DNA of 64,000 nucleotides, from positions 248,001 through 312,000 of the forward strand of contig NZ_JAFMZQ010000001.1 in NCBI RefSeq assembly GCF_024436415.1, written 5' to 3'. The notes under the pieces are model-generated. The model was not told the DNA's origin. It was given only the letters and a program-made list of their open reading frames with translations, and searched no databases. A program made the translations under genes and the position numbers. The stretch's first letter is position 1; every line of letters starts with the position of its first letter. The DNA is from Pedobacter deserti. GTDB taxonomy: Bacteria > Bacteroidota > Bacteroidia > Sphingobacteriales > Sphingobacteriaceae. Positions 22,671-28,470 of the stretch are shown one piece after another.

Positions 22671-24338
22671 TTAATCATGATATGGTAATACAATTTTAAA
22701 TTCAGTTCCTTTGTCGACCCGGCTTTTCACGCTGACCTCTCCGCCCATAAAGTTGACCAGTTCCTTACAGAAAGCCAGCCCCAGGCCTACGCTGCCGTTC
22801 TGGTTATATTGGTTCTGTATCCGGAAAAACTTCTTAAAGATATTATTTATTTCGGAAGCAGGTATACCGATACCCTGATCGGCAAACCTGAACACCGCTT
22901 TTCCCTTGACAAGCATAGCACTCACGTGCAGCTTTTTACGGTTTGGCGGCGAGTACTTATACGCGTTTTCGGCCAGGTTATCGAACAAACTTCCCAGCAA
23001 AACCGGATCGGTAATAATGGTCTTGAAGCCAGACACCTCGTAGGTGAATTCGAAGTCAGGGTGCTTGAGCTTATGCGATTCGACGGTACCTGAGATGAAC
23101 TCCTCAATATTGATCAGGTCCTGATTAAGCTTAATAGCGCGGTTCTCGATTTGGGTGAAAGCCAGCAGCTTGTTCATTAAGCCGTTCAGCTTGTCAGCTT
23201 CTTCGTCGAGTATCTTTCCGTAATGCGACAGCTCACGCTGCGACAGTGCCGCTGCGCTTTTTATGTTATTGCCGGCAATCTTAATGACGCTGACCGGCGT
23301 CTTAAATTCATGCGTCAGGTTGTTTACGAAATCGTACTGCAGTTTAAACATTTTCTGGTTGATGTTCAGGTTGCGGTAGATGAGGAAGGCCACCAGCACC
23401 ACAATGCCGTAAAAGAGGAGTATCCCGATGGCAATCGGCAAAAAATAATTGAATATTTCTTTGTCGATGAAAGACTGCGAAGAGATTAGGTAAAGCTTAT
23501 AGTCGGAAAAAGGCCCGGGAAGAGCAATTTCCGTAGAGACGTAGGAGATAGAGGTATCGAGCGGATCGTAAGTAAGCGGCTCAATTCTAACGTGCTGATA
23601 CAGGTGCGGGCGGGTATTGGCGAGCCGTATCTTATAAGGGTCGAGCTGGAAGCTAAGCATATCCTGCTGGTACACCGGCTGTGGTTCCAGGCGCCTTCGC
23701 ATCATGCGTTTGTACATCTTCAGGTCTTCCATCCTTGGGATGTTCAGATAGCTGATCTTATTGGCCCGCACAATGCTGAAATTACTAAACAGTTCCTCCT
23801 GACTGGGCATACTAGTCGTATCCAGGCTTTCTACATAGGCCGCCAGTTTAAGTGCCAGCTGGTTAAAGTCATCACCAGCAATAAAGTTGCGCGTATGGTC
23901 GGTAGAAAAAAGCAGGACAGAATCGGCCGGTACCAGGCTGCCAAACTGATAGATGCGCTTGGGGCCGAAGGAAAACCGCCCGGTGTTTAAGCCGTCGCTT
24001 ACCGGCGTATTGCGCACCTCCGAATCGTAAAAGATGACCTTAGACACAAAGGGATATTCCAGCAATACCGTATCCACAAAGTGGGAGGCTGTGGCAGAAT
24101 CGAGATAGCCGTTATAATAAGAAACCTCGGGAAGCTTTTTCTGGAAGAAATCGTTATATGCTTTTATGCTTTCTTCCAGGACATTAACCTTCTCGGAAGC
24201 AAACTCATTCTCTATGATCTTGGTACTGAACCTGTACGCAAGGAACAGCGAGAGGATGAACAAGACCATCATCAGGATGATGAAGGTGATGATCAGCGAA
24301 AAATTCTTCCGGTAGCCGCTCTTTTTGTCTGAAGACAT
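22671..24338 (-). CDS. Sensor histidine kinase (RprX-like)
   Basis: A 555-residue membrane kinase. Membrane segments lie at about 13-35 and 299-320, leaving a large periplasmic sensor of about 260 residues that I cannot assign to a known domain. The HisKA domain has phosphoacceptor H343 in NLTHEFKTPVS. The ATPase domain shows NLAENAYKYSPP (N box), DQGIGIP (G1) and GLGLAFCKELV (G2). The kinase gene follows the S9-like gene by eight bases and precedes its response regulator by five, so the three are probably one transcript. The likely role is envelope-signal sensing. Confidence 0.93.
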   Translation of the reverse strand: MSSDKKSGYRKNFSLIITFIILMMVLFILSLFLAYRFSTKIIENEFASEKVNVLEESIKAYNDFFQKKLPEVSYYNGYLDSATASHFVDTVLLEYPFVSKVIFYDSEVRNTPVSDGLNTGRFSFGPKRIYQFGSLVPADSVLLFSTDHTRNFIAGDDFNQLALKLAAYVESLDTTSMPSQEELFSNFSIVRANKISYLNIPRMEDLKMYKRMMRRRLEPQPVYQQDMLSFQLDPYKIRLANTRPHLYQHVRIEPLTYDPLDTSISYVSTEIALPGPFSDYKLYLISSQSFIDKEIFNYFLPIAIGILLFYGIVVLVAFLIYRNLNINQKMFKLQYDFVNNLTHEFKTPVSVIKIAGNNIKSAAALSQRELSHYGKILDEEADKLNGLMNKLLAFTQIENRAIKLNQDLINIEEFISGTVESHKLKHPDFEFTYEVSGFKTIITDPVLLGSLFDNLAENAYKYSPPNRKKLHVSAMLVKGKAVFRFADQGIGIPASEINNIFKKFFRIQNQYNQNGSVGLGLAFCKELVNFMGGEVSVKSRVDKGTEFKIVLPYHD

Positions 24339-24346
24339 TACCTAAG

Positions 24347-26239
24347 TTACTTCTTTTTCAGGTTAACTTCCAGAAATTGTTCGAGCGCGTGGTAATAACG
24401 CTGCCGGTTTGTGTCGTCTTTGCCGTGATGAACATTCCCTTCGTTTTCCAGATAGGTAACACTGACTTTGCGCTTTTGAAGGTTGCGGACGAACTGCACA
24501 GTTTCACTGGTATTGTTGTTCGGGTCTTTAACGTCCTGTGCAATAAATACCGGGATGTTGATGCGCTCGGTTTGAAACAATGGCGAGGTATGCCTCATCT
24601 TGTCTACATCGGTTAGCGGATTGCCAAACACTTCGTAAAACATCTGCAGATTAGGCTTCAGATACGGCGGGATGGATTTAAGAAAGGTAAACAGGTTGAT
24701 AACGCCTGAATTGGATGCCGCACAGGTAAAAAGCTCCGGTTCTGAACAGACGGCACTGAGCGCTATGTATCCGCCGAAACCGGTTCCGTATATCCCCACC
24801 CTGCGCGGGTCGGCAATCTTTTGATCTATAAGCCAGTTTACCCCATCGGTAACGTCGTTCTGCACTTTGCCGCCCCATTCCTTAAAGCCGGCCGACATAA
24901 ATTCCTTGCCGTAGCCGGAAGAGCCGCGGTAATTGATCTGAAACACGGCATAACCCCTGTTGGCCAGAAACTGCACCTCCGGATCGTAGCCCCAGAGATC
25001 ACGACGTACGGGACCGTCGTGCGGAAGGACGACCACCGGCAAATTCTGCGACGCCCCGCCTGAAGGGAGCGTCAGATAACCGTTGATCTTCATGCCGTCG
25101 CGCGCCAGAAAACTTACAGGCTTCATATCGCACATAATGGCCTCGCGTATGGCCGGGTTAAAATCACTCAGTTTCCGGAGCTTGTTGGCGTTCTCAAAAT
25201 ACAAATAATAAGCACCTGGATTTCGGTCGGTAAACGTTCGTACAATATAAACAGACTCTGCCTCGTCGCGGTCAATGATCCTGGTCTCAGTTCCAGGAAG
25301 CAACTTGTCGAGTTTTTGATAAAGTGCCTTCACGGAATCGTCGAGGTAATGCTTTTCCTTCTTCCAGGTTTGATACACCACGAAGGCGATCTTCCGTTTT
25401 TTCCGGGAGTATTGGGCGTCGGTGATATTCAGCGTGTCGCTGGCAAACACCTGCCGGATCTCTTTGCCTGTACGGCAATCGAATTCTACCAAAGCACTTT
25501 TATCGCGGTTTATGCTGGAAATGGCATATACGACGTGGGGACTTCCAAAGGCGAATGCCACCGGCCTGAAGGCTGTTTTGAAGTTATTGGTAATTACTGG
25601 TTTAAAACTGCTCTGCTCACTTTCCCGGTACAGCAGGGTTTCGTTAATCCCGTCGCTGCTGGTGGCCAGGCGAAGCTTCCCCTCGGCATCTGTAGTCCAA
25701 CTTGTAATGTTGCCCGGGTTTTGGGCGGCCATTTCCATAGTGCCACTACGCACATTGAGGCGGTAAACATCAAAAACCGTTGAATCGCGTTTGTTGGACG
25801 AGATCAGGATATACTGGTCGTCGATGAGCTGGTCTTCCAAAACTTTGATCTGCCCACGCTCGTTGCTGGTAAGCTGGCGCGTGTCTTTTCCGTCTTTGTT
25901 GACGATGAAAATATCAGACAATTTCTTTAGCGGGTCGGTTTGCTTGAAATAGATCAGCTCGTCCTGGTCCACCCAAAAGTAAAATCCGATATCCCTATCC
26001 TTCAGGTTGGTGATTTTCCTGGCCTTGCCTGTCTGGATGTCTTCCACGTACAGATTCTGATTTCTGTTTTCCAGCTTGAGGTAAGCCAGGTTGAGCCCAT
26101 CCGGTGATATCCGGTAGCTGGTCCTGTCCTGCGCCTTAAAAAAGGCGTCGACCGGCAACTTTTCCATCTCCTGCCTTTGCTGGCAGTCTATGGCAAATAC
26201 CGCCAGGACCAATAAGATATATTTTTTCAGATTGCTCAT
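24347..26239 (-). CDS. S9 prolyl-oligopeptidase-like protein lacking catalytic Ser
   Basis: A 630-residue protein with an N-terminal hydrophobic segment (about 5-18) that suggests export. A beta-propeller-like region covers about 35-370. The S9 alpha/beta-hydrolase domain covers 380-630, with clear family blocks: PHDGP (usually HGGP), WGYDPEVQFLANRGYAV, INYRGSSGYGKEF and ADPRRV. The nucleophile motif GxSxGGY reads G485-T-G487-F-G-G-Y, so the serine is glycine. The catalytic His position in the usual EGHGF reads EGNVH; the Asp (D572) remains. It is thus probably a non-catalytic binding protein. It heads a unit with the kinase and response regulator. A frameshift is unlikely since the frame is intact throughout. 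Confidence 0.88.
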   Translation of the reverse strand: MSNLKKYILLVLAVFAIDCQQRQEMEKLPVDAFFKAQDRTSYRISPDGLNLAYLKLENRNQNLYVEDIQTGKARKITNLKDRDIGFYFWVDQDELIYFKQTDPLKKLSDIFIVNKDGKDTRQLTSNERGQIKVLEDQLIDDQYILISSNKRDSTVFDVYRLNVRSGTMEMAAQNPGNITSWTTDAEGKLRLATSSDGINETLLYRESEQSSFKPVITNNFKTAFRPVAFAFGSPHVVYAISSINRDKSALVEFDCRTGKEIRQVFASDTLNITDAQYSRKKRKIAFVVYQTWKKEKHYLDDSVKALYQKLDKLLPGTETRIIDRDEAESVYIVRTFTDRNPGAYYLYFENANKLRKLSDFNPAIREAIMCDMKPVSFLARDGMKINGYLTLPSGGASQNLPVVVLPHDGPVRRDLWGYDPEVQFLANRGYAVFQINYRGSSGYGKEFMSAGFKEWGGKVQNDVTDGVNWLIDQKIADPRRVGIYGTGFGGYIALSAVCSEPELFTCAASNSGVINLFTFLKSIPPYLKPNLQMFYEVFGNPLTDVDKMRHTSPLFQTERINIPVFIAQDVKDPNNNTSETVQFVRNLQKRKVSVTYLENEGNVHHGKDDTNRQRYYHALEQFLEVNLKKK

Positions 26240-26260: not shown

Positions 26261-26345
26261 CGCATCATCAGTTTGGTATAGCTACTCTACACTAATATTG
26301 TTACTTTGCTTTTGTAATTTGTAATTTTAAGAATTCCCTTCGAAT

Positions 26346-28154
26346 ATGAAAAATCTCATTGTTACGCTGTGCATATGGATGTCCTCGATATGCTGCTTTG
26401 CGCAGCAGAACACCGGCGAGATGCAGGCTTATGAGCACTATCATCGGGGCGAGTTTGAGGAAGCGGCACGGCTTTTTGAACAGGCCTTTGCACGCTCGGG
26501 AAACGATCAGATCTATGATTTTTACGTGAACGCCCTGTTTAAACTGAAAAGACTGGAGGAGGTAGAGAGGCTGACTAAAAAACTGCTGAAACAGGATGCA
26601 AAAAACCCGCACTACCGCATTGCGCTGGGCAGGCTGCAGCTAGAGAAAGGTTGGGCGGAGGCAGCAAACCGGACCTTTGCTTCTGTGATCAACGACCTGC
26701 CGGCAAACGAGCTTCGGATACGCGAGCTTTCTAATATCTTCAATAGTTTTCAGGCGTACGACCAGAGCGTATCCACCTTGCTGCAGGGACGAAAAATACT
26801 CAATAACCCCATGGCCTTTCATTACGAACTGGTGAGTGTTTACCGCTTTCGTAAAGACAAGTACATGCTGATTGGCGAATACCTCAACGTACTCGAGGAA
26901 GAACCTGAACTTTTGCCTCAGGCAGAGAGTGTATTGTCGACCGTCCTCAGTGAACGCAGTGATTTTCTTACGCTTCAATCGGCGCTCCTCAAGAAATTAC
27001 AAAAAAAACCGGACGCTGAAGCGCTTACGCAATTGCTTATTTGGCAATATATGCAGTTGCAGGAATATGAGATGGTATTAAAGCAGCTGATCGCACTCGA
27101 TAAACGGCTGAACGGCGACGGAACGCCGGTGTTTCATGCGGCTTCGACTTTTTTGGGCAACAAGGCCTACCACACTGCTATAAAGGCTTTTGAATATCTG
27201 ACGGCAAAGGGCCGCGAAAACCCTTACTTCATCCAGGCCAGGATCGGGCTCATTGAAACCAAATACGAGCTGGCTGTTTCAGGTAAGTTTGAACGGAAGG
27301 ATATTCTGACGCTGGCGGCTCAATATGATACGCTGATCAACGAATTCGGCAAGACGGCGCAGACAGTATTTGCCATGAAGAAGCTGGCCAACCTGCAGGC
27401 GCATTATGTTAAGGATCTCAAAGCAGCGGAAAGGACTTTAGAGGAAGCACTTGCTGTGCCGCAGCTCAGGCCTTTGCTCCTTGCTGAAATCAAGCTTGAT
27501 CTGGGAGACATTTATGTGCTTACTAACCAGCCATGGGAGGCTTTCCTGGTGTATGAACAGGTATCGAAGCAGTTTGAAGGGCAGCCCGTAAGCAGCGAGG
27601 CCCGTTTCCGTTCAGCGCGGTTATCTTTTTACCAGGGAAATTTCGACTATGCCCGCTCGCAGGCCGATGTGTTGAAGGCTTCGACTTCCCAGTTGATGGC
27701 AAATGATGCCCTTAATCTGAGCCTGCTTATTTCAGACAACCTGCAGAACCCGGCAGACAGCAGCGCGCTGAAGATGTACGCGGATGCGAAGATGCTCGAG
27801 TTTAGAAACCTGCGTCCGCAGTCGCTTGCGAAGCTGGACAGTATCGGCAAAGCCTTCCCGCAAAACAGCCTGGCCGACGACATACTGATGGCCAAGTCGG
27901 CCATTTACATCAGCACTGGCGAACTGCGTAAGGCAGAGGAAGTGCTTAAGGCGCTCATTGGCCTGGGCAACCAAAGCATCTGGGCGGACGATGCGCTGTT
28001 TACCCTGGCCGGTCTCTACGAGAAAGACCTGCAGCAGCCGGAACAGGCCAGGCTGCTGTACGAGCGACTGATCAACGACCATCCGGGCAGCCTGCTTGCG
28101 GACGAAGCCAGGAAGCGCTTCCGTAAACTTCGGGGCGACAATATTGAGACTTAG
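26346..28154 (+). CDS. Exported tetratricopeptide-repeat protein
   Basis: A 602-residue protein with a signal peptide (1-19, ending CFAQ). The rest is almost entirely helical pairs. TPR-type units are recognisable, for example YEHYHRGEFEEAARLFEQAF near 29-48 and the C-terminal pair LRKAEEVLKALIGLG / LYEKDLQQPEQARLLYERLI near 540-580. The final repeats resemble YbgF/CpoB-type tetratricopeptides. Such periplasmic solenoids act as scaffolds in envelope complexes. It is divergent from the S9-like gene and 16 bases ahead of the DUF4286 gene. No enzymatic domain is visible. Confidence 0.85.
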   Translation: MKNLIVTLCIWMSSICCFAQQNTGEMQAYEHYHRGEFEEAARLFEQAFARSGNDQIYDFYVNALFKLKRLEEVERLTKKLLKQDAKNPHYRIALGRLQLEKGWAEAANRTFASVINDLPANELRIRELSNIFNSFQAYDQSVSTLLQGRKILNNPMAFHYELVSVYRFRKDKYMLIGEYLNVLEEEPELLPQAESVLSTVLSERSDFLTLQSALLKKLQKKPDAEALTQLLIWQYMQLQEYEMVLKQLIALDKRLNGDGTPVFHAASTFLGNKAYHTAIKAFEYLTAKGRENPYFIQARIGLIETKYELAVSGKFERKDILTLAAQYDTLINEFGKTAQTVFAMKKLANLQAHYVKDLKAAERTLEEALAVPQLRPLLLAEIKLDLGDIYVLTNQPWEAFLVYEQVSKQFEGQPVSSEARFRSARLSFYQGNFDYARSQADVLKASTSQLMANDALNLSLLISDNLQNPADSSALKMYADAKMLEFRNLRPQSLAKLDSIGKAFPQNSLADDILMAKSAIYISTGELRKAEEVLKALIGLGNQSIWADDALFTLAGLYEKDLQQPEQARLLYERLINDHPGSLLADEARKRFRKLRGDNIET

Positions 28155-28170
28155 TCGCTATCTTTACCAC

Positions 28171-28470
28171 ATGCTTTTATACAACGTTACCATTATTATT
28201 GAAGAGGATATTGCGGCCGACTGGCTCCGGTGGATGCAGGAAGATCATATCCCTAAAGTGCTGGCGACCGGCAAGTTTGTATCTAACAGGCTCCTGAGAG
28301 TGCTCGATTCGCCGAATGAGGGGGTAACCTATTGCGCACAGTATGTTGCGGAGAATATGGAGGAGTATAACGACTACCAGCAACGTTTTGCACCCGGTCT
28401 GCAAGCAGAACTTACAGACCGGTATGAAAACAAATTCGTAGCCTTCAGAACGCTTATGGAATATGTTTAA
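28171..28470 (+). CDS. DUF4286 family small protein
   Basis: A 99-residue cytoplasmic protein from the ATG at 28171. A longer frame from 28096 would read through the end of the TPR gene and is rejected because the family begins MLLYNVT. The DUF4286 core is clear: TIIIEEDIAADWLRWMQEDHIP at about 6-27 and a C-terminal ENKFVAFRTLMEYV. The fold is probably a dimeric ferredoxin-like alpha/beta domain. The function is unknown. It is convergent with the OmpA gene with only two bases between stops. Confidence 0.88.
   Translation: MLLYNVTIIIEEDIAADWLRWMQEDHIPKVLATGKFVSNRLLRVLDSPNEGVTYCAQYVAENMEEYNDYQQRFAPGLQAELTDRYENKFVAFRTLMEYV

Follow-up and report, generated by a model that had tools for sequence, protein, structure and literature searches.

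An S9-fold pseudopeptidase lipoprotein as a probable accessory component of a two-component system in the Sphingobacteriaceae

Introduction

Lipoproteins that act as accessories of sensor kinases and pseudoenzymes of the S9 peptidase family are each already known. The lipoprotein QseG (237 aa) binds the periplasmic domain of the kinase QseE and activates this kinase, and it is called indispensable in Escherichia coli, in the portions of the two papers drawn on here (PMC6075780, PMC12691602). The actinobacterial lipoprotein LpqB, of the MtrAB-LpqB system, is reported to interact with MtrB and to lower MtrB activity in M. smegmatis (PMC5845573). On the pseudoenzyme side, the human S9B pseudopeptidases DPP6 and DPP10 are non-catalytic subunits of Kv4 channels in which the nucleophilic Ser is replaced, by Asp in DPP6 and by Gly in DPP10, and the DPP10 of the fly is both subunit and peptidase, as related in the available text of these papers (PMC4350108, PMC4873792). 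For the hemin system of Porphyromonas gingivalis, a prolyl oligopeptidase gene is also listed with those that are changed and are bound by the regulator (PMC3764172). Among the matches listed in the literature that we searched, which left subscription journals mostly outside, none described a pseudopeptidase of the S9 family in connection with a two-component system of bacteria.

Here we describe such a combination in a stretch of 64,000 nucleotides of Pedobacter deserti DNA (hereafter the window), in which a putative lipoprotein of the S9 fold is encoded next to a sensor histidine kinase and a response regulator (Table 1). The arrangement resembles QseEGF in that a lipoprotein is encoded with a kinase and a regulator, conserved here across the genomes except for five of the genus g11. 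It differs in that the text available to us does not present QseG as a member of the S9 family, and in that these five genomes lack the S9 protein whereas QseG is, in the same text, indispensable in E. coli. The likeness to DPP10 and DPP6 lies in the combination of a propeller with a hydrolase fold, the replaced Ser and the existence of orthologues that still cut, or are expected to; DPP6 and DPP10 are channel subunits, whereas a subunit role is predicted here. These two are, moreover, eukaryotic type II membrane proteins, in contrast to a bacterial lipoprotein that is closer to acylaminoacyl peptidases and whose gene lies next to that of a histidine kinase. LpqB is similar in that it, too, is a lipoprotein accessory to a two-component system; it is not known to be an S9 protein.

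Table 1. Positions in the window of the S9 gene, its two partner genes, key residues and the promoter box.
Feature	Position	Strand	Basis
Pseudopeptidase of the S9 fold, lipoprotein of 630 aa; alpha/beta-hydrolase preceded by a beta-propeller	24347..26239	minus	ORF, PF00326, AlphaFold2 model, Foldseek
Cys19, putative lipid-attachment cysteine	26183..26185	minus	alignment of orthologues
Gly487, where the catalytic Ser is expected	24779..24781	minus	alignment; unlinked rows Ser 80/80
Asp572, retained catalytic Asp position	24524..24526	minus	family alignment
His604, in the catalytic His column, EGHG motif absent; probably chance	24428..24430	minus	alignment, parsimony, model pLDDT
Sensor histidine kinase, 555 aa; HisKA + HATPase_c	22671..24338	minus	Pfam, alignment of 26
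OmpR/PhoB-type response regulator, 228 aa	21979..22665	minus	Response_reg + Trans_reg_C (Pfam)
GTAAC box, GTAACAATATTAGTGTA on the minus strand, putative regulatory site	26288..26304	minus	ends of the box 49 and 65 nt ahead of the S9 start

Results and discussion

The S9 protein of the window

The protein matches Peptidase_S9 (PF00326) over residues 417-629, nearly the full length of the model, at 131 bits (cut-off 22.6). Its closest PDB sequence, the acylaminoacyl peptidase 5l8s (E 1.4e-31), is also the top fold match (Foldseek, E 2.9e-38) of its AlphaFold2 model (pLDDT 88, pTM 0.86). Residues 39-359 of this model are mostly strands, the hydrolase follows, and the Foldseek matches are full-length. 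The two proteins differ in their motif (GGSYGG in 5l8s vs GTGFGG) and in the putative lipid anchor that the window protein carries.

The motif GTGFGGY occupies residues 485-491, which places Gly at 487, and the Ser nucleophile of GxSxGG is absent. Asp572, at the position of the catalytic Asp, is kept. The initial annotation, made from the letters of the window, had claimed a Gly in place of the nucleophile alongside intact Asp and S9 fold blocks, and our results agree with it on each of these points. Its claim of a lost catalytic His holds for the EGHG motif, which is gone, but not for the residue, as His604 of EGNVHH shares a column with the catalytic His of EGHGF in a gapless alignment. This His is probably there by chance and not a functioning catalytic residue, because the same column holds F or V in the close relatives L165 and L167, because a His at this position is found, within the genus members read, in the window species only, and because it lies in the one stretch of the model (602-606) where pLDDT stays under 50 for at least three residues in a row. 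Parsimony scores it as a gain on the tree.

Chance or sequencing error is ruled out for Gly487 itself, both by the genus-wide occurrence of Gly (see below) and by a conspecific genome, in which Gly487 is intact although the S9 gene differs by 33 nt, with 29 synonymous codon changes and four amino acid changes. At the level of sequence, then, the proposed pseudoenzyme status stands, and it is a well supported reading that the window species encodes a non-peptidase of the S9 fold family.

The putative lipid-attachment residue, Cys19, is invariant among 26 diverse orthologues. A Cys is present within residues 13-34 in 119 of the 120 family S9 proteins, and it is preceded at -1 by A, S or G in 114 of these 119, with the Cys chosen by a simple rule; the residue at -1 to Cys19 is Asp in the window protein and Gly in its conspecific. 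Acidic residues following the lipid Cys are a signal for surface export. Since two or more of them at +2 to +6 were found in only 15 of 120 proteins, a periplasmic location is assumed.

Linkage to a two-component system

At a threshold of E <= 1e-60, an S9 match was found in 141 of 151 family genomes, a few of the matches being fragments, and was absent in the other 10. Loci were read for 120 of the 141 matching genomes. In each of these 120 loci the S9 gene is directly followed by the kinase gene in the same orientation, and the regulator comes next after the kinase in 119 of 119, the contig of the 120th ending before that point. The S9 stop and the kinase start are -4 to +43 nt apart in 119 of the 120 loci and 189 nt apart in one, as measured with start codons picked by script; in the window, 8 nt separate the kinase start from the S9 stop, and another 5 nt lie between the kinase and regulator genes. 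The initial annotation had described a tight unit and named the lack of such linkage in relatives as a reason to abandon its proposal; the unit is indeed tight, and the linkage is conserved wherever it could be read. Among named genomes, the operon is present in Pedobacter, Mucilaginibacter, Sphingobacterium, Olivibacter, Arcticibacter and Pelobium. A Pedobacter-like operon, with a kinase that is 70% identical, also occurs in a record titled Flavobacteriaceae bacterium PS02338 (L235), the label of which may be wrong. Two family genomes, G004 and G046, each hold one more S9 homologue, with 40-41% identity (G004:C1:16827-18686 and G046:C29:43999-45849).

Other neighbours of the window operon also have homologues in the fetched stretches, namely a small ORF (window 28165-28467; 110 of 120 loci), a TPR-repeat gene (87), a metallophosphatase gene (63), a UbiA-like gene (56) and an OmpA-like gene (49). 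As these neighbours are fairly conserved too, part of the linkage between S9 gene and kinase reflects general synteny. Evolutionary distances of the kinase and the S9 protein are correlated across 118 of the 120 loci, with a partial r of 0.52 between propeller and sensor and of 0.41 between hydrolase and sensor; the pairs are non-independent and carry no significance test, and the correlation gives weak support to the pairing.

The phospho-acceptor H343 and the ATP-site residue N454 of the kinase are invariant among 26 aligned sequences, and both a receiver and a winged-helix effector domain were found in the window response regulator, for which PhoB is the closest NCBIfam model, at a score under the model cut-off. 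The periplasmic sensor of the kinase spans approximately residues 36-300 (model pLDDT 88). Comparison of the sensor model with double-Cache domains by VIA-align gave Z scores up to 10.4, with 190 of 269 residues aligned at an rmsd of 4.2, a moderate match. A Foldseek search with the same model returned nothing at E <= 0.001 (best E 4.1e-3), and because every E lay above this value we call the fold double-Cache-like only tentatively. Among the 247 genomes of the class sample, with the best few candidates per genome scored, a kinase with such a sensor was found in 8, all of them Sphingobacteriaceae. A further comparison of sensors covered 80 of 81 chosen ones, with L143 omitted.

Loss of the catalytic residues

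The nucleophile column of the 120 family rows holds Gly in 75, Ser in 38, Arg in 6 and Asn in one. The catalytic His is kept in 47 of 120; in the acidic column, 118 rows have Asp and the other two Asn. By these residues, 37 members retain both Ser and His, 72 retain neither, 10 have His alone and one has Ser alone. Within the genus of the window, Gly is found in 49 of the 50 genomes in which the motif was read (L438 is a fragment lacking the motif), so that the Gly at 487 is shared in the same gene context, a point that the initial annotation had proposed to check. The sole genus member read with a Ser, L049 (1-11884, genome G115; the same gene as L019), has the motif GTSFGGF and has lost the His motif; its Ser appears as a gain by parsimony.

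Parsimony on a tree of 142 rows, 22 of them an outgroup used for rooting, requires at least 13 changes for Ser (12 losses and one gain) and 10 for His (nine losses and one gain), and 12 independent pairs fall on supported branches. The tree was built by a quick method and leaves 34 forks open, so that the figure of approximately 12 Ser losses is an estimate. The Ser codon is AGT or AGC in all 38 Ser-bearing members, one step from codons for Gly, Arg and Asn, which helps to account for the recurrence of Gly and for Ala never being seen. Eased strain at the nucleophile elbow may be an additional cause of the recurrent Gly.

Unlinked homologues form a different picture. The class sample contributed 22 of them and named records the other 58, which include metagenome bins that carry no family label, and the 80 rows are 79 distinct ones (L198 and L245 are identical over the last 500 residues). 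Ser is found in 80 of 80 and His in 79 of 80. The exception in the His column is Parachitinimonas caeni (L284), which keeps the Ser and has the His loop EGLGF. No homologue of the kinase or the regulator was found within 1.5 kb of the 22 class-sample genes. Beside the 58 named homologues, no kinase homologue was found in the fetched stretch (less than 600 nt downstream in three of the 58), and the only regulator match, at L255, is weak (29.8%). Given that these unlinked relatives are of the active type and kinase-free, the family S9 protein most likely descends from an active ancestor without the linkage, and the linkage as well as the decay belong to the Sphingobacteriaceae. With one origin of the linkage as far as can be seen, the contrast between linked and unlinked members is by itself no proof of cause.

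Selection on active and dead members

To compare members that have lost the catalytic residues (dead) with those that retain them (active), dN/dS of the S9 gene was estimated for 17 pairs, three of which had saturated dS; values ranged from 0.025 to 0.149 in seven dead pairs vs 0.039 to 0.083 in seven active pairs. Fifty-four positions are conserved at 95% or more in the dead, active and outside groups alike. Relaxation confined to the dead members was seen in the Ser and His columns and at R190, E328, Y510, Y526, I560, G569, R574 and E602, eight further positions at which the active and the outside rows show conservation; L049, with Ser kept and His lost, was placed in neither group. The dead S9 proteins are thus under strong purifying selection and are maintained for a role other than S9 catalysis. 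One internal stop each was seen in the S9 orthologues of five genomes (G048, G057, G096, G142 and G123), owing to decay or to sequencing error.

Genomes without the S9 gene

Five of the genomes lacking an S9 match belong to g11 (G010, G033, G049, G060 and G070; loci L315-L319) and measure 1.7-2.0 Mb. They carry the kinase and the regulator by the same TPR gene and no S9 orthologue, and no ORF of at least 70 aa was found between their TPR gene and the kinase. The remaining five, G067 (100% complete) and G008, G009, G043 and G080 (71-83% complete), gave matches to the kinase core only. In the kinase tree, where bootstrap values are not fully settled, the g11 rows fall beside L145, the S9 protein of which is of the active type, at 100/100, nested among S9-bearing lineages. 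This position indicates that the S9 gene was lost in g11, a reduced genus which, as judged from its genomes, presents a natural S9 deletion. Because kinase and regulator are kept there, the S9 protein is not obligatory everywhere, and since the kinase appears able to serve without it, a modulator fits better than an obligate receptor.

Role of the S9 protein

We propose that the S9 protein is a periplasmic accessory (third) component of a Sphingobacteriaceae two-component system, with a non-catalytic role kept by selection, and give this reading a probability of roughly 0.6. The non-catalytic job would have arrived with the linkage to the kinase, after which catalysis would have become dispensable, and certain lineages would still hold both functions. 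The lipoprotein would most likely dock on the periplasmic sensor of the kinase and report a bound ligand or the state of the envelope. It would then work like the accessory lipoproteins of other kinases, QseG above all, and like DPP10 among S9 pseudoenzymes. Peptide binding and the passing of information to the kinase, which the initial annotation had suggested, are hypothetical parts of such a role. A caveat to the idea that linkage frees catalysis is that the linkage has, as far as can be seen, a single origin, with repeated losses after it.

The protein could instead be co-regulated but separate, sharing the operon while performing an envelope job of its own (peptide binding, chaperone or scaffold) and making no contact with the kinase. 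The g11 genomes, which have kept kinase and regulator without it, speak for this, as does the putative regulon of other envelope proteins, the PF14905 barrels discussed below, into which a regulated envelope protein would fit. We nevertheless consider a separate job rather unlikely, given that the S9 gene sits directly upstream of the sensor kinase at all 120 S9 loci read and that, among the best few candidates scored per genome, a kinase with this sensor was seen in this family only. It is much harder to maintain that hydrolase activity persists by means of a substitute nucleophile or a reorganised active site. The Asp present in nearly all rows and the His604 of the window protein would suit such an enzyme, but a replacement nucleophile close by was rejected: no Ser or Cys is conserved beside Gly487 among the family motifs, the preceding residue varying among T, S, N, Y, A, V and others. 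Also telling against it are the eight active-conserved positions that are relaxed in dead members, the poorly modelled His loop and the finding that a Ser put into human DPP10 restored no activity, as given in the accessible part of that paper (PMC4350108).

Finally, the internal stops in a few genomes and the complete loss in the five g11 genomes could be taken as signs of a decaying leftover peptidase, retained by its operon position alone. We give this almost no credence, in view of the low dN/dS of the dead pairs and of an orthologue match in the great majority of family genomes, a few of them fragmentary; for the window lineage, pseudogene decay is rejected by dN/dS and by the four amino acid changes against 29 synonymous ones.

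An accessory component of the kinase therefore remains our preferred reading, and we extend it only tentatively into a fuller scenario that we find somewhat doubtful. A secreted enzyme of the S9 aminopeptidase type would have been captured once, at the base of the Sphingobacteriaceae, as an extracytoplasmic receptor or adaptor subunit of a new sensor kinase; the non-catalytic role would have prevailed, and the protein would have discarded its catalysis a dozen times, making it a bacterial counterpart of DPP10 with Kv4; in Pedobacter, the system would control its own operon and two barrel proteins via the TGTATTTNAAATGTTAC box. The active, half-dead, dead and deleted versions found beside the same kinase amount to a natural mutant series for the non-cutting role.

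Promoter boxes and candidate regulon

The sequence TGTATTTTAAATGTTAC occurs with 0-2 mismatches in the 300 nt upstream of 62 of the 120 operons, in one orientation in all 62. As controls, the coding sequences of the kinases had none (0 of 120), shuffled sequences had one in 120, and the upstream regions of the unlinked S9 genes had none (0 of 58). The exact 17-bp TGTATTTNAAATGTTAC was found at 53 sites in 37 of 60 genus genomes, with none for the reversed control. Surroundings were fetched for 31 of these 53 sites; the gene downstream of the site encodes a PF14905 outer-membrane barrel in 29 cases and the S9 protein in two. In the Pedobacter loci looked at (L350, L358, L371 and others), two adjacent PF14905 barrel genes follow gcvH and a VanZ-like gene, near sprA. 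The box is present upstream, at 1-2 mismatches, in 24 of 27 close barrel orthologues, while L384 has four mismatches and L396 and L397 are partial. From this distribution we infer that the operon's own regulator may bind the 17-bp box and that the barrel genes are putatively controlled by the two-component system, which makes the predicted box and the barrel genes a candidate readout of the system.

The window genome has no exact TGTATTTNAAATGTTAC, its operon promoter is missing the stronger 17-bp box, and it has no close barrel orthologue (best identity 32-36%). Its promoter keeps only a second, reversed GTAAC box, which as GTAACAWTNTTR was counted by eye in 19 of 20 aligned genus promoters.

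A genome-wide search allowing up to two mismatches proved too loose, as the hits were similar to those of the reversed control in several of nine genomes (G013, 4 vs 11; G150, 10 vs 8), and we therefore used only exact or promoter-restricted matches. TTG-N-TAnnTTTG is a promoter motif of the Bacteroidetes; a loose pattern for it occurred in only five of 120 upstream regions and was left unused. The TPR-repeat gene of the window (26346-28154) is divergent from the S9 operon, and the intergenic region is common to both.
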